A stretch of DNA of 35,270 nucleotides from a virus. The notes under the pieces are model-generated. The model was given only the letters and a program-made list of their open reading frames with translations. It was not told where the DNA came from and did not search any database. The stretch is from positions 1-35,270 of the IMG/VR virus record IMGVR_UViG_3300033998_000262. One strand, given 5' to 3'. The position numbers and the translations under genes are program-made. Below are positions 20,352 through 35,055 of the stretch, in pieces (position 1 is the first letter of the stretch; the number at the start of each line of letters is the position of its first letter).

Positions 20352-21002
20352 ATGGCTCAACAAGATATAAATAAAACAATATATGATAATTTTAAAAGAG
20401 TTTTGTTTGTTAAATCCCACACCGGATTAGTTCCAGTAGCTTCTGGTGGAACACTTTGTGGGGAAACTCCTACAGACATAGGTGGAAGGATTATTGAAGA
20501 ACATACTCCCCCCACACCTGCTTTAAAAACATCTGAAATAAAGATATTAAATGGCTCTTCGGTTTTTCACAGTACAGGGATAGCGTCTTATCGTATTGAA
20601 CTTAAAATACTTTTTAAATCGAAAGTAAAGTACGCTGAATTTATCGCTAATACAAAAAACGAGTTTGTATATTATGATGAAAATGGATATATTTATCAAT
20701 GTGCCGTTATTGGGGAACCAGATATTGAGAGAATCGAGGGCGGACAAAGATATATAGTTAAGCTAACACTGCAAGGTGTTAAGAAAAATAAATACGATAA
20801 TGAATATTTAGTAAACTTTACTGATATAGATAGTTCAGTTTACCGTAGCGACATTGAAGAAATAACGGTGGCGGGGTTGGTTTCAACATTTTCTTCCGTG
20901 GGAAATGTTTATACCTATAGACCAAATAATGCTTTAAGAAGATCAGAAATAGCAGCATTTTTAAATAGATTAAGAAAATATATAAAAAGAGCAGTTCAGT
21001 GA
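20352..21002 (+). CDS. Distal tail (Dit-like) protein with C-terminal SLH domain
   Basis: The 216-residue protein is first after the tape measure, where Dit-type proteins lie. Residues 1-150 are beta-rich with a Dit-like central pattern: a strand ASYRIELKILF, then EFVYYDENGYIYQC, then GGQRYIVKLTLQGV. Residues about 153-212 form a recognisable S-layer homology domain: it opens with NFTDI, has a mid-helix IEEITVAGLV, and closes with YRPNNALRRSEIAAFLNRLR, the F.P...TR.E.A..L.R consensus. SLH domains bind pyruvylated secondary cell-wall polymers in Gram-positive bacteria, so this tail-tip protein may contact the host wall. The SLH call is strong; the Dit role rests on position and shape. Confidence 0.65.
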   Translation: MAQQDINKTIYDNFKRVLFVKSHTGLVPVASGGTLCGETPTDIGGRIIEEHTPPTPALKTSEIKILNGSSVFHSTGIASYRIELKILFKSKVKYAEFIANTKNEFVYYDENGYIYQCAVIGEPDIERIEGGQRYIVKLTLQGVKKNKYDNEYLVNFTDIDSSVYRSDIEEITVAGLVSTFSSVGNVYTYRPNNALRRSEIAAFLNRLRKYIKRAVQ

Positions 21003-21008
21003 CTGCTC
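20989..21008 (+). terminator. Short hairpin spanning the stop codon of the Dit-like gene
   Basis: GAGCAGT at 20989-20995 pairs with ACTGCTC at 21002-21008 around a 6-base loop. Only a scattered T-rich stretch follows, so termination would be weak. Confidence 0.4.
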
Positions 21009-21069
21009 CCTAATTCTCTTCTTAGTTTTTCTATTATATAAACTTGTCCTTTAGGAAGTACTTTTGTTG

Positions 21070-21118
21070 CTTTGGGTGAACTACCCCCACATATAGAGGT
21101 GGGCGACTTCTGTCGTAA
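21070..21118 (-). mobile_element. IS200/IS605 right-end-like sequence, orphan
   Basis: Read on the minus strand, this stretch is GACAGAAGTCGCCCACCTC, then TATAT, then GTGGGGGTAGTTCACCC. The CCCAC/GTGGG hairpin (21086-21090 with 21099-21103) flanked by GACAGAAG and GTAGTTCA resembles right ends of IS200/IS605-family elements as I know them. No tnpA or tnpB is present. Instead, the minus-strand antirepressor ends two bases away. The match is from memory of the family pattern and was not searched. Confidence 0.4.
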
Positions 21119-21119
21119 A

Positions 21120-21836
21120 TTAGGTTAAAATTACTCCATACGGTGTTTCTGTTGGTCTTTCTATTACCTCGAAAAACCCAGCATCTATCTTATCTTGATA
21201 TGGTTCAGTAGAATTTGGCAATATCATTTTCCATTCTCTAAGTTTTTTGTATAATCTGTTTTGTCCAATTTTTATTCCTTGTTTGCTTGCAATTTTAGCT
21301 AGTTCTCTAATAAGGATGCTATCACTAGAAGACAAACATGTTTCCGCAAATTCAACTAAAGGTTTTTGTTTTTCAATTTTAGCTTCTGCTTCCTTGCGTT
21401 TTTGTTGTTCTTCTTTAAATGCAGTCAGTAGCCTGATTCCAAAATCGGGGTCAGCAAGTATTTTGTCAATTGTTTCTGATGTTGCATATAAACCATATTT
21501 ACGGATTGATTCAACAACTTCCCATACCCAGTCCATGAAGGCATCTGCTTTGGGTTGTCTGCTGAAACGGCAAATTTCATATATGCCTTTGTAGCAGTAA
21601 ACCGTCATTTTCCTTGTTACCTCACGGTTTCCTTCAACTTTCCTCAAATTGAGGGTAGTTGAAAATTTGTCTAACCTGTCGTGGTTGCGGTCATGTATGT
21701 TTGCTATTGCTTTGTCAGGGTCAGCATACTCCAAAGCCCTCCCTATCTGTTCCCTTGTCATCCAGATTTGCCCGTTTTCATCCCGCCAAAAATCACACTT
21801 CACAGCACCAAAATTTTCAGATTTAACCAGCTTCAT
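21120..21836 (-). CDS. Phage antirepressor, BRO-N plus ANT/KilAC domains
   Basis: The 238-residue protein has a BRO-N domain at about residues 8-110 (CDFWRDENGQIWMTREQIGRAL, then the nearly invariant CYKGIYEICRFSRQPKA..FMDWVWEVV) and a C-terminal ANT/KilAC-type DNA-binding domain at about 150-235 (SSDSILIRELAKIASKQG, then GQNRLYKKLREWKMI). Such proteins inactivate or bypass lysogeny repressors. The start is supported by AAGGAG 8 bases upstream. It is the only minus-strand gene I accept and it sits between two SLH-bearing tail genes, where regulators are not expected, so it is probably an insertion with its own promoter. Its 3' end abuts an IS200/IS605-like hairpin. Confidence 0.9.
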   Translation of the reverse strand: MKLVKSENFGAVKCDFWRDENGQIWMTREQIGRALEYADPDKAIANIHDRNHDRLDKFSTTLNLRKVEGNREVTRKMTVYCYKGIYEICRFSRQPKADAFMDWVWEVVESIRKYGLYATSETIDKILADPDFGIRLLTAFKEEQQKRKEAEAKIEKQKPLVEFAETCLSSSDSILIRELAKIASKQGIKIGQNRLYKKLREWKMILPNSTEPYQDKIDAGFFEVIERPTETPYGVILT

Positions 21837-21939
21837 TTAACTCACTCCTTATTAAAAATCTATCTTCTACTTACTTTTATTGCTTAAAGCCGTCACCAGT
21901 TAAATTGGAAATTTTATGAAGATATGATTTTTAAGTTGA

Positions 21940-21950
21940 AGCCTATTCTT
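21940..21950 (+). promoter_or_regulatory. Recurrent intergenic motif, copy 6 (variant)
   Basis: AGCCTATTCTT differs from the consensus at the first and last base. It lies 35 bases before the next tail gene and upstream of the divergent antirepressor, so after insertion this gene kept its own upstream signal. Confidence 0.3.
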
Positions 21951-21985
21951 TTAGTGAGAAGAAATTTTTATAAGGAGATGATTTT

Positions 21986-23263
21986 GTGTATTTTTTAGAT
22001 GTACCACCCTCCCATTGGGCGGCGAATGATGTTAATGATCTTGCAGATATAGATTTGCATGGATACGGGAAGTTTATTGAAAGTATTCCTTATAATGTCT
22101 ATGAAGAAAATTATCCTGCATACGATAAAATGTTTTCAGTAGAAACTTGGACAACTGAATTTAATCTAGGCGTATATATAAAACAAAGTGCGGATAATCC
22201 AATATCAGTATTCCATAATGGGGTTGAAGTTGGGTATGCTGAATTAAAATTAGATGAAAATAATAATACTGTAGTTGTATTGAGAAGAGCAGCAAATCCG
22301 GGTTCATTTGTAAGAATTATTTGTCCAGGAAAAGCAAAAATTGATACAAATAATCTGTTACAAGTACCTGTAGGTGTTGGTGGTACTTATAAATTACCTG
22401 AAAAATTATTGGGTTTTAAAAATCCTGAAAAATTCGGTGATAAACATAAAGATTATTATTATATCTATGACCAAGAATATCAATACTTATCTGAATATGC
22501 AACGTGGAAGGGGGCGCAGTTAAAAAGAGTTCCATATTTTAATGTTTTAGATGATCTCCCCGCTACCGGAAAGCCAAATGATTATATTTATATAAGAAAT
22601 GCTAAAAATACAGATGGTGCTTTTTATAAATGGGACACAGAAACAAATTCATGGGTTGTAGATGCAATACCTAAAGAAAATAAAATGTATACAATATCAC
22701 CTGATGGATTATTGATAACCCCATATGGTATGCATAATGAGCTTATAAATATCAGATATATAGTAGGGTTAAAAGATGGATTTGGAAATGTAATGAAAAG
22801 CTCATATCAATTGATAAATGAAGTAACCTATGCCGAATCTAATTATATGGTGTATGTAAATAGGTATTTCCCTGACACGTATGTATCAAGATTACAACTT
22901 ATTGCTTTTTTAGACAGGTTAAGAGTCCATTTATTACTGGAATATGCTAATTATAAAGATTATAGCGAGTTAGTTGTCACTAAAAGTATATCGGAATCAG
23001 TATTCTCCGATGTTAGATCATTAACGGGATATGAATGGTGGTGGAAACATTTAGCTAATTTAGAAAATTTGAAATTAAGTACTGGAGAATATCTTCTTAA
23101 TTTTGATAAAAATGGTAGTCCAATTACTGACGGAAGACCCCGCCCAAAGAACGCTAAAATAGGGATATATGCTTCTGATGGAAAAGAGTACCCTGTAAAT
23201 AGGGGGGAGACGGCTTGGTTTCTTAATAGATTTCGTAAGTATTTTTTAGAAATTTTAGTATAG
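21986..23263 (+). CDS. SLH-containing tail-tip/fibre protein
   Basis: The 425-residue protein starts at GTG 21986, 8 bases after AAGGAG. Residues 3-25 (FLDVPPSHWAANDVNDLADI) are a canonical first half of an SLH domain. A second partial SLH lies near residues 290-312 (YFPDTYVSRLQLIAFLDRLR). A third, more complete one runs from about residue 337 to 423: it opens with SVFSDV, continues through WWKHLANLENLKLS, and ends with KEYPVNRGETAWFLNRFRKY. Between them are a small NG-loop beta domain (SVFHNGVEVGYAEL) and a fibre-type segment (LDDLPATGKPNDYIYIRN). It probably belongs to the tail-tip adhesion apparatus. It has no RGxR-type tube features or peptidase motifs. Confidence 0.65.
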   Translation: MYFLDVPPSHWAANDVNDLADIDLHGYGKFIESIPYNVYEENYPAYDKMFSVETWTTEFNLGVYIKQSADNPISVFHNGVEVGYAELKLDENNNTVVVLRRAANPGSFVRIICPGKAKIDTNNLLQVPVGVGGTYKLPEKLLGFKNPEKFGDKHKDYYYIYDQEYQYLSEYATWKGAQLKRVPYFNVLDDLPATGKPNDYIYIRNAKNTDGAFYKWDTETNSWVVDAIPKENKMYTISPDGLLITPYGMHNELINIRYIVGLKDGFGNVMKSSYQLINEVTYAESNYMVYVNRYFPDTYVSRLQLIAFLDRLRVHLLLEYANYKDYSELVVTKSISESVFSDVRSLTGYEWWWKHLANLENLKLSTGEYLLNFDKNGSPITDGRPRPKNAKIGIYASDGKEYPVNRGETAWFLNRFRKYFLEILV

Positions 23264-23276
23264 GTAGGTAGGTTTT

Positions 23277-25898
23277 ATGCAATATATTGATGAATATACA
23301 ATGTCAATTTTGAGAGATAAATTAAAAGTAGGGAATAAACAAGTTAATGTGCGTATAGAAGTAGATAAATTTGAATATATACCGAATCAAATTACTGAGT
23401 TTTATTCTGTTATGATGGAAACAGATGTAACTACACCAACAATAAATATTCAATCCACTAATATTAGTAACGCTATCATCATGGCTTTTCCGATATTAGG
23501 TAAAACATTTTCTGACTTTGAACCTATAGCAAGTAATCTTGATTTTGGGGCTAAAAGATATGTAGATGGAAAAGTTTCTTATCATGGTGGGATTGATTTT
23601 GGAGTTCCAGAAGGTACTCCTATTATAGCTGTTGCAGATGGTGTTATTACACTTGTAGAAATGAATAATCGTTATTTTGGTCATTATATAAATATTCTTC
23701 ATGATAACGGTATATTGACAAGATATTGCCACCTTAGTAAATTTGCAACTGTTAACGGACAAACTATTCGTCAAGGAATGCAAGTAAAAAAAGGTGATGT
23801 TATAGCATATTCAGGAAATACTGGTTGGTCGACAGGACCGCATTTACATTTTGAAGTGAGAACAGGAGCAAGTAAATCAAGTATCGGTAACAAGACAGAT
23901 CCAAAACCTTATTTAAAAGGAATTTTAAAAATAAGGGATGTTGATATTGTTATACAAACAGAGCCAAAACCAGCTCTTCCTAAAATTAACGGGCCTTTAT
24001 ATTATGACCTTATTAATCAAGTAGTTTTTAAGAGCGATTTTTCTTTAGTAGGGCAAACCCCGCCGGGTTTTATACAAACTAATCCAAAGTACTGGGTGGT
24101 AACAACAAATGATGGGGTAAATGTTTTAGGTTGTCCTAGTTTACTAAGTGGGTTTACGCAAATAGCTAAAAACTTCACGATATATAATTCAGGGCTTGTT
24201 ACGTTTAAAATTAAAGCGTCACTTTCTGCTAGTAGCAAATTAGATGTTGCTTTAGATGATAAAATAATTTTATCAAAAACAACAAGTACTAATGGCTACG
24301 AAGCATTTACTTTTGAGACTACAGAAGGCAATCATGTATTGTTTTTTAAATTTACAAAGACTGCCGGGTCAAATTCTCAAGTTTTTATAAGTAATATTGA
24401 GATTATAAACAGATACCCGAAACTTGATGATGGTACATCTCTTTATATAAAAGGGCCTGATGCTGTTATAATTAATGAGGATATAACAGAACCACAGTAT
24501 GTTAAGTCTGCCGCTTCAGATAATTCAACGAATATTATTCAAGTTAATCCTGGCGATATTTTTCCGTATATTGAGACTGCGTATGAAACGCAAACTGCAT
24601 GGTATAAAGTAGTAGCAAATAATCAAACAGGGTATATAAAGAGTACTATATCAAGATTAAATGTAGATGAAAATATAACCACTAAAGTTTATCAAGTACC
24701 TACTGGTGCATTTATATATTCGAAAACACTTACGGTAGAGAATGTAATATCTCTTGAGCTAGATTATAAGTATGAGATGCGGGCTGCGGATGCAGTATTT
24801 ACAATATATAACAATAAAGGATATTATGCCCCTGACTATAACCCGGCACTTTTTAATGAGTACGGGAGTAAAGATTCAGATTACAGAGATGTTTTTGTAG
24901 AAAATGCTCCCGTAAGGATTTATATAGGGTATGGGGATAGGCTTATTAGAAAATTTACAGGGCTTGTAACATCTGTATCAATAGACGGAAACGGAGAGGT
25001 AATGACTATAAGATGCTCGGATATGATGAAGTTGATGAATGATTATTTTACTTATTTGCCGATAAACTATCCTGAAGAGGGCGGGGTTGATACCGTATGG
25101 TTAGCATCTTCTGTAATACATGATATGGCTATAAAGGCCGGGATGAATAGTTGGAAATACTTATATGAAGATTTATCAAGGCCATCAATAATTATAGAAG
25201 ACTCTTATTTTACGGATGTTAACCCTAAAAACGGTACTTTTATAAAAATAAATGAAAATAACGAACCTGTAGAAGTTAATATAAACAGCATTCCGGAAGG
25301 GACAGGTTATAGGAATCCAGCGATATGGAGTGGACAGGTGCCTGTTGGAACAAATGCTGCTGAATATGTTGAAAATATATGTTTGCAGTTAGGTTATTGG
25401 CAGAGATGTGACTACTATGGTACTTATATCGCGTCAAAAATACCATTTTTCTATGATTCTAATGGTAGTTTTAATAAAACAGCAGTTTATAAGTTTGTTG
25501 ATGGAGAGAACATTATAAGTGTTAGTAAAAGTTATGATTATTCTAAAATTAGAAACCATTTGATTATAGGTGGACCGACAGGTCAAGATCATTTTTTTGA
25601 TATAGAGTTATGGAAACTAGCAGGCGGTATTAGAAAAACTGCATCCGAATATGTAGATTTTGCAAATACTTATGCAAAAAGATCTGCTGTTGCGAGAAAA
25701 ATGTTTTTTGATATAAAGTCAATGATTAGAACACTGCAAGTAGGTGTTGAAGGTAATCCATTCATAGAATTAATGGATGTAGTTGAAATAGAAAATAGAG
25801 ATACTAATACAAAGGGTACTTTTGTTGTTAAGGGCATCAGGGATTCATTTTCCGTAGATCAAGGGTATATTACTGTGTTAGATTTATTCTGGGTATAG
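23277..25898 (+). CDS. Tail hub/lysin (Tal-like) with embedded M23 peptidase and SH3b domain
   Basis: The 873-residue protein starts and ends as a tail hub. Residues 1-65 begin a beta domain (VNVRIEVDKF). Residues about 490-870 carry a gp27/GPD-like hub (EMRAADAVFTIYNNKG, VRIYIGYGDRLIRKFTGLV, then EVMTIRCSDMMKLMND) and end in a late-control-D style strand region. Inserted at residues about 85-205 is a complete M23 zinc endopeptidase: HGGIDFG with His103 and Asp107, RYCHLS with His152, and GPHLHFEV with His189 and His191. Residues about 235-385 look like a carbohydrate-binding jelly roll. Residues about 405-465 look like an SH3b domain (AWYKVVANNQTGYIKS). It should cut peptidoglycan cross-bridges during DNA entry. 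Confidence 0.85.
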   Translation: MQYIDEYTMSILRDKLKVGNKQVNVRIEVDKFEYIPNQITEFYSVMMETDVTTPTINIQSTNISNAIIMAFPILGKTFSDFEPIASNLDFGAKRYVDGKVSYHGGIDFGVPEGTPIIAVADGVITLVEMNNRYFGHYINILHDNGILTRYCHLSKFATVNGQTIRQGMQVKKGDVIAYSGNTGWSTGPHLHFEVRTGASKSSIGNKTDPKPYLKGILKIRDVDIVIQTEPKPALPKINGPLYYDLINQVVFKSDFSLVGQTPPGFIQTNPKYWVVTTNDGVNVLGCPSLLSGFTQIAKNFTIYNSGLVTFKIKASLSASSKLDVALDDKIILSKTTSTNGYEAFTFETTEGNHVLFFKFTKTAGSNSQVFISNIEIINRYPKLDDGTSLYIKGPDAVIINEDITEPQYVKSAASDNSTNIIQVNPGDIFPYIETAYETQTAWYKVVANNQTGYIKSTISRLNVDENITTKVYQVPTGAFIYSKTLTVENVISLELDYKYEMRAADAVFTIYNNKGYYAPDYNPALFNEYGSKDSDYRDVFVENAPVRIYIGYGDRLIRKFTGLVTSVSIDGNGEVMTIRCSDMMKLMNDYFTYLPINYPEEGGVDTVWLASSVIHDMAIKAGMNSWKYLYEDLSRPSIIIEDSYFTDVNPKNGTFIKINENNEPVEVNINSIPEGTGYRNPAIWSGQVPVGTNAAEYVENICLQLGYWQRCDYYGTYIASKIPFFYDSNGSFNKTAVYKFVDGENIISVSKSYDYSKIRNHLIIGGPTGQDHFFDIELWKLAGGIRKTASEYVDFANTYAKRSAVARKMFFDIKSMIRTLQVGVEGNPFIELMDVVEIENRDTNTKGTFVVKGIRDSFSVDQGYITVLDLFWV

Positions 25899-29223: not shown

Positions 29224-29245
29224 CATGCTTTTCAACAAAAATCTA

Positions 29246-29268
29246 CCCACCTATATAAACAAGGTGGG
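29246..29268 (+). terminator. Hairpin between the baseplate gene and the next gene
   Basis: CCCACCT (29246-29252) pairs perfectly with AGGTGGG (29262-29268) over a 9-base loop, followed by CATTTTA. The T tail is weak. It lies inside a possible N-terminal extension of the downstream frame, which argues for the later start there. Confidence 0.55.
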
Positions 29269-29284
29269 CATTTTAGGTGGTTAC

Positions 29285-31621
29285 ATGATTTATAATTTTA
29301 AGTTTAATGTTTATAATAAGCCGAATTATATTCTTTCTTTTAATTCTTTGACCAGTAATATATATACATTATATTTTTTCGGCTTCAATGTGTATGAAAT
29401 AATAAAGTATACGGCTAAATATGTAGAATTAACAAATACAGAGAAAGAAATTTTTTTAAATAAATTGTGTACAATAAACTTAAGCTCCGGTGATTTAGAT
29501 AAAAATGTGCAGTTAATTAGTGATAAAGGATTAATAGATATAAAGAAAATGGTTCAGTATTTAAGTGATAGTATTATTATTAGCAATAAACATAAATTAA
29601 ATACAGGCGTACTCAATAGGGCCGATGTAGTAAGTAAAGTCTATAGTTACGTAGAAAATTTTGTACAAATACATTTAATTAAAGCCCTGTGGGGGGTAAT
29701 TTCTAACCAGTCGTGTAATTTTTATGTTAGTAAGCAGTACTTTAAAGAACAAATAGGCGAGTTTGATATATATAACCCCAAACAAAGTGAAGAATATAAA
29801 ATAAACAGTATTTTAAAAATAAATATTACACACACTAAACCCCATTTTATAGAGAATGTAAATAAACAAGAAGTTAACTATCGTGAAAATATGGTTGTAG
29901 AGAATAATATCAATATAGATAAAGTATTTTTGGTTTGTATCGATCCTTTAGATATTAAGGAGTTTTATACAAACCACATTAAAGAAACTGAAAAGGCATA
30001 CGGTACAGTACAGAATGCACACCAAAATAACTTTAAATATACTGATTATAATGCTAAAGCCGATGCAGGGGTTAGATTAACAAAACTATCAGATAAGCAT
30101 ATACAAAAAACGATAAATAAATCCCCTAAAAGGTTTGTTAGCAGGTTAAAAAACGTGTCTTTTAAAACTAAAAAAAGGATTGAAATGCCTAAACGTGAAA
30201 ACTATAAACGTTCATTTTTAAATATAACTAATAACATAGAAGAAATAAATTCAGGTGTTTCTAAAGAATTAGAAAATTATTTGTCGTTAATCGATAATGC
30301 AAAACTTTTTAAGTTAATAAATAATGTAATCAGTGATATTAATTCTGATAAAATCGAATATATAGAAAAACCGATGGAAAGTGTAAATAGAAGTAATTAC
30401 TTGAATTTAGATGGTATAGTTGGTATAACTAACCAACAAAAACTCAAAAATGTTACTGATGAACCAAAAGGTATTGTTAAAAATAATATGGAACAAGCAC
30501 AAACTTCGTTTGTTTTAATGAAAAAAAATTACAATACTTTAATAAATAAATTAAAAAATGTGAAGACCAATAATAAAAAGCGTGTAAACACTTTAAAGCC
30601 AGTCAGAATGAAACCCTTGAAAACAATAAATCCTGTTATTAAATCACAAAAATATTTATATAAAAAGGTGAATATTTATACTAAAACCTTTAAATTAAAG
30701 TGTAAGCATTTATCTTTTTACAAAAGATGGCGGTTTAAAACAGGAAAAGCACACGATAATATTTGGCTAAATCCAGTAACAACAGAGGAATATAAAATAG
30801 CATTACAAAGAACTAACATTCTAAATGATTTTTATAATGACGTTTCTAATGTGGTAAATTTATACGACGTTACTGAAAACAGCTTAAAAAGGGATCTATT
30901 AGATTATTTACAAAATTTGTTTGATAATAAATACATTCTTAGTGAGAGTGTTAATGAATTCGCTATAATTTCTGATATTTTTAAAGTTAATGTTAATAGT
31001 TTAGAAGAAAGTTCTATAAATAATATTAGAGAAACAATTGAATCATTGCTTATAAATACTGTTAATGAATATAAAAGCAGGTATATTGATGAATTAACAA
31101 AGGCTAAATATGAATTAGCTATAGAAAGTAGAATTTCGTTTAAGGCTTTATTAGATTTTATATTGTTTATAGAACAGATTATTTACATCAATAAATCACA
31201 TTTTGCTGCTAATAGAGCTGTAACTGTAATAGAAAGAATGATAAAAATTTTAGATGAGTGGCTTAATGAAGCCCCACCCACCGAAATTCCGAATGATTAT
31301 TTATATTTGTTAAGGTGGTTTAAATGGTTTGCCGAAGGTGAAAAGAATAGACACTTAAATGATGTTGAATTAAATGGGCTAAATATAATTGAAAAATTAA
31401 AAGATCAAATGGTAAATTATTTTGAAAGCAGGTGGGGGAAGAGAGTTGTAGAATACGGTCCAGATGGCATGTATATTTATTCCAAGGATTATAGTTATAT
31501 AGACAGGATTAGAGGTAAAAAACACGGTACAAATAAGATGCTTGTTGATAAAAATACTATGAAAGAAGATTACGGAATAAGCGAAAAAGATTTGCCTTTT
31601 AATGTTGAAGGGGATGAATAG
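29285..31621 (+). CDS. Large basic protein of unknown function, tail region
   Basis: The frame is open from ATG 29225, but the first 20 codons lie across a hairpin. ATG 29285, preceded by AGGTGG, is preferred, giving 778 residues. The protein is very rich in Lys, Asn and Ile and its gene is strikingly AT-rich. N-terminal residues 1-100 look folded (MIYNFKFNVYNK, then LYFFGFNVYEIIKYTAKY). Residues about 270-480 are strongly basic with little predicted globular structure. Residues about 570-740 are helical with aromatic clusters (YLYLLRWFKWFAEG). No catalytic motif is visible. Such a basic low-complexity centre could be a flexible linker between an attachment domain and a distal domain. It may be recently acquired, given its composition. 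Confidence 0.65.
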   Translation: MIYNFKFNVYNKPNYILSFNSLTSNIYTLYFFGFNVYEIIKYTAKYVELTNTEKEIFLNKLCTINLSSGDLDKNVQLISDKGLIDIKKMVQYLSDSIIISNKHKLNTGVLNRADVVSKVYSYVENFVQIHLIKALWGVISNQSCNFYVSKQYFKEQIGEFDIYNPKQSEEYKINSILKINITHTKPHFIENVNKQEVNYRENMVVENNINIDKVFLVCIDPLDIKEFYTNHIKETEKAYGTVQNAHQNNFKYTDYNAKADAGVRLTKLSDKHIQKTINKSPKRFVSRLKNVSFKTKKRIEMPKRENYKRSFLNITNNIEEINSGVSKELENYLSLIDNAKLFKLINNVISDINSDKIEYIEKPMESVNRSNYLNLDGIVGITNQQKLKNVTDEPKGIVKNNMEQAQTSFVLMKKNYNTLINKLKNVKTNNKKRVNTLKPVRMKPLKTINPVIKSQKYLYKKVNIYTKTFKLKCKHLSFYKRWRFKTGKAHDNIWLNPVTTEEYKIALQRTNILNDFYNDVSNVVNLYDVTENSLKRDLLDYLQNLFDNKYILSESVNEFAIISDIFKVNVNSLEESSINNIRETIESLLINTVNEYKSRYIDELTKAKYELAIESRISFKALLDFILFIEQIIYINKSHFAANRAVTVIERMIKILDEWLNEAPPTEIPNDYLYLLRWFKWFAEGEKNRHLNDVELNGLNIIEKLKDQMVNYFESRWGKRVVEYGPDGMYIYSKDYSYIDRIRGKKHGTNKMLVDKNTMKEDYGISEKDLPFNVEGDE

Positions 31622-31622
31622 T

Positions 31623-31988
31623 GTGGCAGAAACTTTACATCAAGTGTTTTGCATCTTTGTAAGACCAACATACCAAGAAGACAGCACCGGAAATAGAGTA
31701 CCGTATACTGGAGTTATATATAGAATTAAAGGTTATGTGGAAACTGAATACTGTTACTATCCTATACTACAGAGTCTATCCACAGAAAATATAGGTAGTA
31801 CAAATTTATCATCAGAATTTATAAATTCCAGTAATACTTATTATAGGGATGCTTGGTTTTTGCATAGTAGTTATACCAGTTATTGGAAGTGTAGGGATAA
31901 ATTAAAAGAATTAATGAAAAAGTACGGGAAAGAAAATTTAAAGTTATTTATATATATACCTTGGGATTATGAAGTAACCCCAGATTGA
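31623..31988 (+). CDS. Small tail-region protein, first of a tandem paralogous pair
   Basis: Two ATGs upstream are in frame, but GTG 31623 lies 9 bases after AAGGGG and gives an N-terminus that aligns with the next gene, so I prefer it (121 residues). Shared features with the neighbour: QVFCIFVRPTYQED at the start, DAWFLHSSYTSYW in the middle and IYIPWDYEVTPD at the end. It is probably a single small alpha/beta domain. No family is recognised. The start lies two bases after the previous stop codon. The pair probably makes related tail-tip or fibre-accessory subunits, but this is inference from location. Confidence 0.65.
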   Translation: MAETLHQVFCIFVRPTYQEDSTGNRVPYTGVIYRIKGYVETEYCYYPILQSLSTENIGSTNLSSEFINSSNTYYRDAWFLHSSYTSYWKCRDKLKELMKKYGKENLKLFIYIPWDYEVTPD

Positions 31989-32011
31989 ATTTTGAACAAA
32001 GGAGTGTTTTT

Positions 32012-32356
32012 ATGGCTAACTTATTACAAAAAGTATTTTTAATTTTTGTAAGACCGTATTATGAAGATGATGCTGTTGCAGATAGAAAAGTATTTATAAA
32101 AACTGATATACGGTTTTATGATAATGGGACATATCGACTATTAAAAACAATCAACCCTTCTGGACGAACTACTTCTCCAGACGTGTTAAATTCATCAAGT
32201 AAATATGATGCGGATGCTTGGTTTTTGTATGGTTCATACACTAGTTACAATGACATGAGAGAAATGTTAAAAAATGTGATAGCTGTATATGGTACGGCTA
32301 ATGTAAGACCTTGTGTTTATATTCCTATAGACTACGAAGTACTTCCAAACAAATAA
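32012..32356 (+). CDS. Small tail-region protein, second of a tandem paralogous pair
   Basis: The start is ATG 32012 with AAAGGAG upstream; the frame is open 9 codons further back without a ribosome site. The 114-residue product aligns along its length with the preceding gene: KVFLIFVRPYYEDD, then DAWFLYGSYTSYNDMREML, then VYIPIDYEVLPNK. The central region between the motifs has diverged strongly, while the ends are conserved, suggesting a common fold with a variable surface. This looks like a duplication followed by divergence. No function can be given. Confidence 0.65.
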   Translation: MANLLQKVFLIFVRPYYEDDAVADRKVFIKTDIRFYDNGTYRLLKTINPSGRTTSPDVLNSSSKYDADAWFLYGSYTSYNDMREMLKNVIAVYGTANVRPCVYIPIDYEVLPNK

Positions 32357-33391: not shown

Positions 33392-33400
33392 GGTTTGGGG

Positions 33401-34300
33401 GTGCAGCGTGTGTCATTAAAGTGGATTACTTCAGGTGTTGTAGGTATTTTAGATAAAGAAGAAATAATAATAGAGCAGAATGGGCAAACATCTATCACAT
33501 TAACAAAAGCTTATACTGTTGGTATAGGTATGATAGATGTTTATAGAAATGGTGTATTACTTCAAAAAAATACTTATAGAGAAATATCATCTACGGAAAT
33601 ATTATATGCAGATAATGAAAATCCTTTAGAAGCAGGAGATATTATTACTGTCCGCCACCACCTCCCACAAAACGGGTTAAGTATAGGAAATTTGCGTGTA
33701 GTCAGTTATTATTCCGATTTATTAAACATCCAAGACCCTAAGTTTAATGATATTGTTATTGTAACAAGTTTAAAGAAATTTTACCATTATGGCGAAAATG
33801 GGTGGGAAGAATGGGTAATTCCTTTTACCACACAAAATATCGGAATGTTGTTTAAATATGAAAAACAGCAAATATTAGATACATTCCAAAAAACCTACAC
33901 TCTTAATACTATTACCTACAATCCTGGAATGGGAGATTTATTAGTATTTATAAACGGGCTGCTTGTAAAAGATTATACTGAAATAGATAGTCAGACAATT
34001 CAATTCGATTTTGATGAGTTACCTGAGGGTGAGATCGAGTTTATTGTTGCTAATACAGATCCGTGGGAGGACTGTAATAATCATGAAGTAGAGTATCAAT
34101 ATGATGATAAAGGTAATATAAACAAAGAAACAGTTGTATATAATAACTCACCGATTAAAACAACAACTTTTGAATATGATGCTAAAGGGAGTATTTCAAA
34201 AGAAATTATTATAAAAAATGGGAAGGTAATAACTAAAACTTATTCCTATGATAGCAATGATAATATTACAGGCATTAGTGTATCTGTAACAACCATCTAA
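33401..34300 (+). CDS. Tail fibre-like protein with two NG-loop beta domains and C-terminal YD-type repeats
   Basis: Possible starts are TTG 33395, GTG 33401 and GTG 33410, all near a G-rich ribosome site; I use 33401 (299 residues). The protein has two copies of a small beta domain marked by a turn: MIDVYRNGVLLQKNTYREIS, and LLVFINGLLVKDYTEIDS further on. Between them is a fibre segment (DPKFNDIVIVTSLKKFYHYG). The last 70 residues hold three YD/Rhs-like units (EYQYDDKGNINKE, FEYDAKGSISKE, TYSYDSNDNITGI). The C-terminal unit is nearly the same as in the next gene. It is probably part of an adhesion fibre. Confidence 0.65.
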   Translation: MQRVSLKWITSGVVGILDKEEIIIEQNGQTSITLTKAYTVGIGMIDVYRNGVLLQKNTYREISSTEILYADNENPLEAGDIITVRHHLPQNGLSIGNLRVVSYYSDLLNIQDPKFNDIVIVTSLKKFYHYGENGWEEWVIPFTTQNIGMLFKYEKQQILDTFQKTYTLNTITYNPGMGDLLVFINGLLVKDYTEIDSQTIQFDFDELPEGEIEFIVANTDPWEDCNNHEVEYQYDDKGNINKETVVYNNSPIKTTTFEYDAKGSISKEIIIKNGKVITKTYSYDSNDNITGISVSVTTI

Positions 34301-34342: not shown

Positions 34343-34374
34343 AGCGAAAGAAATTTATAAGTGAGGTGTTTTTT

Positions 34375-35055
34375 ATGGCTCAAAAGAAAATAACAGTTGT
34401 ACAGGTAGATGCAGGCAAACAAGGTTTTAGTAATTTAGGCGCTAGACTCGATGACATAGATAGTTCTATTGCAAGCGTTAATTCTAATCTACAAAGCGAA
34501 ATAGATGTAAATGAAGCTGAAATAGCAAAAATTAATGAAGCTCTTATGGCTGCCGCTCAGGCTCCTGTACCAACACCTGTAATGTATGATGTTTCTTCTT
34601 ATACTGTACAAGCCACTGATATTACAGAAGGACAGCCTACTACTATCACTCTTCCTGGTGGAAGGTATTATCTTGTAGGTAAGAATCATCTCCAAGTTTT
34701 AAGAAACGGAGTGCCTCAAGTACTGGAAAACGGTGACTATACTGAAGCTTCTTCAACTACAATTCAGTATGCTGCTGATATACTTGTTGAAGGTGATGTA
34801 TTGACATTTATTATAGGGAAATCCAGTAAGCTTGCTTATAGTGTAAGTGTAACTTATTATGAAAGCGGACCAAATACAGGTCTCGTTCAAACAATGACGT
34901 ATACTGGCGATGTCAATAAGACTGTGACTTATAACTATAATGCTGAGAAAAAAATTTCCAGTGAAGTTATTGTAGAAGATGGTAAAACAACCACAAAAAC
35001 ATACAATTATGACGGTAATGGAAAACTTACTGGAATATCTGTAACTGTAGCTTAA
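34375..35055 (+). CDS. Fibre-like protein sharing the C-terminal module of the preceding gene
   Basis: GTG 34366 is open in frame, but ATG 34375 with GTGAGGTG upstream is the better start, giving 226 residues. Order of parts: an N-terminal coiled-coil-like segment (LDDIDSSIASVNSNLQSEID), an NG-loop beta domain (HLQVLRNGVPQVLENGDYTE, then QYAADILVEGDVLTFII), and a C-terminal YD-type unit (TVTYNYNAEKKISSEVI, then TYNYDGNGKLTGISVTVA). The last part closely matches the end of the previous gene, so the two proteins may share a trimerisation or receptor-binding tip. Base composition is somewhat less AT-rich than in upstream fibre genes. A strong terminator follows 13 bases later. Confidence 0.7.
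   Translation: MAQKKITVVQVDAGKQGFSNLGARLDDIDSSIASVNSNLQSEIDVNEAEIAKINEALMAAAQAPVPTPVMYDVSSYTVQATDITEGQPTTITLPGGRYYLVGKNHLQVLRNGVPQVLENGDYTEASSTTIQYAADILVEGDVLTFIIGKSSKLAYSVSVTYYESGPNTGLVQTMTYTGDVNKTVTYNYNAEKKISSEVIVEDGKTTTKTYNYDGNGKLTGISVTVA

Follow-up and report, generated by a model that had tools for sequence, protein, structure and literature searches.

The canonical S-layer homology (SLH) trimer is built from three SLH copies. In bacterial anchors of the type of Sap (Bacillus anthracis) and SpaA (P. alvei), all carrying PF00395 domains, the three copies lie in tandem on one chain. The pyruvylated sugar bound by SpaA is held by all three copies, one giving Arg43, the following one Gly29 and the remaining one Trp13, and the Arg of the TRAE motif contacts the pyruvate in both Sap and SpaA (PMC6081394). 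At the phage tail tip, saccharide-binding modules are known from evolved distal tail (Dit) proteins, in which CBMs are carried on the Dit chain, as in the lactococcal 936 and P335 phages and in Deep-Purple (PMC6669499, PMC9692632, PMC9128512). A phage protein using an SLH domain has also been described, the LysBT1 endolysin of a Brevibacillus thermoruber prophage, but this is a lysis enzyme whose single SLH mediates homotrimers and which is no part of a virion (PMC12285257). Adsorption or infection by the B. anthracis phages AP50c and Thrax1 needs CsaB, a requirement ascribed to the S-layer and not to an SLH on the virion (PMC3545897, PMC9703825). Consistent with the remark in the initial annotation that SLH domains are rarely described on tail-tip proteins, our literature search for SLH on phage tails found no published description. 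RefSeq labels gp155 of Brevibacillus phage Jenst "S-layer homology domain-containing protein" and its gp154 hypothetical, and the paper on Jenst and related phages does not mention SLH (PMC4909266). The nearest precedents are the CBM-bearing evolved Dit proteins and the trimerizing SLH endolysin.

The locus analyzed here lies in a 35,270-nucleotide stretch of DNA (one strand of IMG/VR virus record IMGVR_UViG_3300033998_000262), referred to below as the window. We consider it reasonably probable that its Dit protein and the product of the next tail gene, here called the partner, jointly form a tail-tip SLH adhesion module, a trimer assembled in trans that would most likely bind a pyruvylated polymer. 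Like Sap and SpaA, this module would have three copies of a homologous domain, a predicted trimeric fold and conserved Trp and TRAE residues, but the copies are spread over two virion proteins and one of them is interrupted. It shares with evolved Dit proteins a saccharide-binding module on Dit at the tail tip, with binding here predicted, and differs from them in that the module is an SLH that would be complete only with a second protein. Jenst gp155 and gp154 (phrog_32188 and phrog_29574) are direct homologues of the pair, in the same gene order.

Gene order and SLH identity of the Dit and partner proteins

Directly upstream of the SLH pair, the window encodes a 3660-aa tape measure protein (TMP), followed by the Dit-like gene (20352–21002, plus strand; 216 aa), and the order TMP, Dit-SLH, SLH partner, M23 hub is common to the window and Jenst. 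The Dit-like protein matches PHROG 33, "distal tail protein Dit" (2.2e-5), and phrog_32188 (3.8e-28), and is 28–33% identical to Jenst gp155 and its counterpart in Bacillus phage EZ-2018a; the Dit profile match and the position after the tape measure gene both place it among Dit proteins. In the structure model of a relative (locus L015), the Dit core matches the Dit proteins of SPP1 (2x8k), 80alpha (6v8i) and p2 (2wzp) with Z 7.5–8.2. Beyond this core the protein carries an extra C-terminal module, as evolved Dit proteins do. The partner (21986–23263, plus strand; 425 aa) has a GTG start with an AAGGAG ribosome site and is assigned from its homology to Jenst gp154 (phrog_29574, 0.0026), a tblastn match to locus L047 (2.5e-17) and the family alignment. 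The tail hub protein that follows (23277–25898, plus strand; phrog_36429, 1.7e-73) contains an inserted M23 peptidase (Pfam M23, 8.3e-29); it is a neighbor in the conserved order without an SLH, and Jenst gp153, a "putative peptidase M23", occupies the same place.

The extra module of Dit is the first SLH of the pair, module A (residues 155–214; 20814–20993, plus strand). A family profile built from relatives with the window excluded scores it at 44.1 bits, versus 7.1 bits for the best of 4000 shuffles. Its TRAE position reads RRSE, with Arg197, and Val163-Tyr164 replaces the usual Trp. Taken by itself the window gives weak evidence: hmmscan with Pfam called no SLH in either the window Dit or the partner, and a six-frame search of the window with Pfam SLH matched Dit alone, below the cut-off (10.9 bits, E 0.02; cut-off 20.8 bits), an absence that we attribute to divergence. 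Among relatives, the Pfam domain is found in the Dit proteins of Jenst (gp155, 6.6e-7) and EZ-2018a (2.6e-4), is matched by 14 of 15 Dit family members at E<=0.1, and exceeds the cut-off in the Dit of 13 of 14 related virus records.

Alignment searches recovered 13 Dit and 21 partner loci in viral contigs, partly from the same records, and 36 loci in bacterial genomes (Paenibacillus, Brevibacillus, Bacillus, Aneurinibacillus, Anaerovirgula, Desulfocucumis and one unclassified Bacillota MAG). At every locus examined the partner gene follows the Dit-SLH gene (the partner frame is truncated at L067). Scans for close relatives in viral and bacterial-genome contigs with the window proteins alone found none, and tblastn of the window partner among phages found none. 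The Dit profile also detects host SLH proteins, down to 1.3e-12, through its C-terminal part, and when a Dit-partner profile was run against PDB sequences only the Sap SLH entries 6bt4 (E 0.012) and 3pyw (E 0.019) were matched.

Together these results make the SLH identity of the Dit/partner family very likely. A chance resemblance, in which the window motifs would not be SLH domains at all, could appeal to the missing Pfam match of the window proteins, but it is hard to credit given the family profiles and the structural match to Sap described below, and for the family it is refuted by the Pfam matches of the relatives. The reading in the initial annotation that the Dit-like gene ends in a full SLH holds on this evidence. 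The PF00395 search that it proposed stayed below the cut-off for the window itself, and the identity is carried by the relatives' Pfam scores and the window-free profiles. Among the homologues that it proposed to check, some 60 related loci from viral contigs and bacterial genomes have a Dit-SLH gene followed each time by a two-SLH partner.

Arrangement of the three modules and the predicted trimer

The initial annotation read the partner as carrying an SLH first half, a C-terminal copy and a partial copy. All of these positions stand, but the "first half" and the "partial copy" belong together as a single split SLH, here module B. Its first half (residues 2–22, YFLDVPPSHWAANDVNDLADI, with Trp11; 21989–22051, plus strand) aligns with the W-IDV-x-P-x-DW motif of all relatives. 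By themselves these 21 residues give no significant score (7.5 bits against the module-A profile, 7.1 for the best shuffle), and the assignment is made from the whole-protein family alignment and not from their own score. The second half (residues 290–320; 22853–22945, plus strand) has SRLQ at the TRAE position, with Arg302, and scores 20.3 bits with a window-free profile versus 5.9 for the best shuffle; the model places a helix at 302–320. Between the halves, AlphaFold2 predicts a mostly beta domain (residues 23–289; 22052–22852, plus strand). The protein closes with a complete SLH, module C (residues 349–425; 23030–23260, plus strand), which has Trp351, Gly367 and an NRGE motif with Arg406, and a model helix at 406–424. 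With the window-free module C profile the partner scores 21.3 bits and the Dit copy 19.5 bits, compared with 7.0 for the best shuffle. The loop of about 20 residues preceding the NRGE motif is longer in the window than in relatives.

This layout recurs in every partner examined: the first SLH half (WIDV-x-P-x-DW) is N-terminal, the second half (RFFP...RRAEF) follows the inserted beta domain, and a complete SLH ends the protein. The insert measures more than 200 residues in relatives and about 270 in the window, and one lineage has an extra beta domain between B and C. Since the first half and the partial copy form one interrupted SLH, Dit gives one SLH and the partner two. Read from the sequence, then, the pair carries 1+2 SLH copies, a count that the initial annotation overlooked along with the split domain.

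In most relatives the Dit and partner genes overlap or nearly touch, suggesting coupled translation. At loci L012–L015 the two lie in one frame, with TAA and one codon ahead of the partner start; natural read-through of this stop was considered and rejected, as the genes overlap or differ in frame in most relatives. For modeling, the L015 pair was written as a read-through chain with TAA read as Gln, using an alignment of 31 rows. The resulting AlphaFold model (mean pLDDT 78.5, pTM 0.67) folds A, B and C into one trimer. Its best VIA-align match is 6bt4, the structure of B. anthracis Sap SLH bound to a pyruvylated SCWP unit, with 150 of 165 residues aligned at Z 15.1 and rmsd 2.9 across model range 145–552, the insert being skipped. 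The top eight rows are all Sap or SpaA SLH structures, and the first unrelated structure follows at Z 9.3. The three copies are therefore able to form one canonical trimer. Being a single covalent chain, the model is no proof of assembly between separate proteins; its fold may also reflect tandem SLH structures that AlphaFold learned in training, and in Foldseek by itself the top rank did not go to an SLH structure. The trimer modeling proposed in the initial annotation gave a trimer for the L015 read-through chain. The window partner on its own modeled poorly (pLDDT 69), and VIA-align returned no SLH row for it; because of this low confidence, and because it contains only two of the three SLHs, we count that model neither for nor against.

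A 1+2 trimer in trans is likely. Each Dit subunit would contribute its C-terminal SLH and the partner its full module C and its split module B, within which the adaptor-like beta domain is set, and the three would join across chains into one canonical pseudo-threefold trimer docking the partner onto the Dit ring. The SLHs of three Dit subunits might instead trimerize among themselves, giving two trimers per hexamer, with the partner SLHs used separately, a wall-binding device that would not be composite. Single SLH domains are indeed capable of homotrimers, as in SlpA and the LysBT1 endolysin (PMC12285257). Against this arrangement, the one-SLH gene is invariably paired with a two-SLH gene, the 1+2 model matches the canonical trimer over 150 residues, and a two-SLH partner could not close a trimer by itself, and we regard it as improbable.

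Putative ligand pocket and host CsaB

If the SLHs served purely as a structural joint, the trimer in trans would clamp the partner and its fiber-adaptor-like insert onto the Dit ring, polysaccharide binding would be lost or unused, and other proteins would bind the host. The insert itself fits such a role: residues 44–115 of the window partner model resemble the tailspike anchor of phage TSP4 (VIA-align 7rfv, Z 6.2, rmsd 1.7, 62 aligned), the L015 insert is similar to tail domains of TSP4 and LME-1 (for 7rfv, Z 6.5 and rmsd 1.7 over 62), and a BFVD search gave fiber- and adaptor-like matches and no named SLH protein.

The pocket residues point partly the other way. Across 61 aligned rows, Arg43 is conserved in 61 of 61 A modules, 56 of 60 B modules and 56 of 60 C modules, and Trp13 in 60 of 61 A and 59 of 61 B modules; in the other family members these residues, both with ligand roles, are among the best conserved columns of every module, which argues against a joint alone. 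Gly29, however, is conserved only in C (49 of 61); module A usually has Val or Thr at this position, and in B the insert takes its place, so that at most one canonical pocket can be complete. By analogy with SpaA, the sole pocket with the full set would combine the Trp of Dit module A, the Arg of partner module B and the Gly of partner module C. In the window, the TRAE-type Arg is retained in all three modules (RRSE, SRLQ and NRGE; Dit 197, partner 302 and 406), as are partner Trp11, Trp351 and Gly367; the Dit Trp has become Val-Tyr, and ligand binding is therefore less certain for the window.

Host genomes were examined for CsaB as a marker of the ligand. With the TIGR03609 cut-off, CsaB was found in 25 of 28 lysogenized host genomes, the exceptions being one MAG, B. 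tequilensis and B. pumilus. In a separate set of 399 evenly drawn Bacilli, 157 genomes had CsaB at 1e-50, and these included every one of the 21 that carry a full Dit-SLH. One of the 21 was the center of the draw, and the link is inflated by shared taxonomy. In the B. pumilus and B. tequilensis lysogen genomes we found no SLH proteins and no CsaB over the cut-off; their phages nonetheless keep all three SLH modules, with Arg changed to Lys. SLH modules can thus persist without CsaB, and the dependence of receptor choice on CsaB-type pyruvylation, suggested in the initial annotation, is not universal.

The substitutions are confined. Lys in module C together with Gln in the A motif is limited to the B. 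pumilus and B. tequilensis phages, EZ-2018a and locus L016; in the pumilus type, module B has Lys as well. These phages form one clade, and Arg is retained in its sister, which comes from B. chungangensis, a host with CsaB. Independent Arg to Lys evolution in CsaB-less hosts was considered and rejected: the four cases lie in one clade and therefore represent one event, not a statistical association. A ligand change or loss after a single host shift fits this pattern.

Retention of the modules in hosts lacking CsaB and SLH proteins, the Lys forms of B and C and the missing Gly29 of A and B all lend some weight to the structural joint, but nearly all family members occur in CsaB hosts, and we judge the joint unlikely as a full account, if clearly less so than a Dit homotrimer. 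On balance, wall-polymer binding by the family is favored, and adsorption to pyruvylated polymer is plausible from the conserved motifs. Through the composite trimer the virion would most likely attach to pyruvylated secondary wall polymer, with the best conserved pocket shared between the two proteins, and the M23 hub would open the wall after binding. More tentatively, the pocket might be absent until the two virion proteins meet, tip assembly thereby switching on wall binding and host CsaB controlling adsorption.

If the composite trimer is correct, a domain that bacteria themselves use for anchoring has been adopted by phages and shared out over two tail proteins, and the ligand of the host's S-layer anchor would be the virion's grip. 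One could then ask directly, and in many phages of Paenibacillus and Brevibacillus at once, whether a phage receptor can be the pyruvylated polymer and not an S-layer protein. The replacement of Arg by Lys in phages whose Bacillus hosts lack CsaB would be a natural experiment on how SLH domains choose their ligand.

Insertions at the Dit/partner junction and other genes

The Dit/partner junction, tight in most relatives, is occupied in the window by an antirepressor-like gene (21120–21836, minus strand; Pfam ANT 3e-15, Bro-N 1.9e-10) with Bro-N and KilAC parts, which lies exactly within it and has a GC content of 0.38 versus 0.32–0.33 in the adjoining genes. This gene is no part of the SLH device. 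A different antirepressor-like gene, on the plus strand, is found in the same junction in Anaerovirgula multivorans (L041, 10680–11370); it has AntA-like and KilAC-like parts, named by eye and not by profile, and is apparently broken. It is a second insertion of an antirepressor-type gene at the Dit/partner junction.

The virus record behind locus L018 also encodes, at 757–1554 (L094), a protein of 265 aa that has a signal-like stretch at its N-terminus and carries SLH copies of the host type, either a host gene or a surface protein carried for lysogeny. An Rfam search of the window gave no matches. Elsewhere in the window, a 798-aa Lys/Asn-rich protein (29225–31621) has no family over the cut-off and no relative among the loci compared. 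Two adjacent small genes at 31602–32356 (128 and 123 aa) resemble tandem duplicates (FVRP..., DAWFL...SYTSY) and have no Pfam match. Finally, two consecutive genes at 33395–34300 and 34366–35055 both end in similar RHS-repeat-like stretches, with a Pfam RHS_repeat match of 2.3e-6 in the first.
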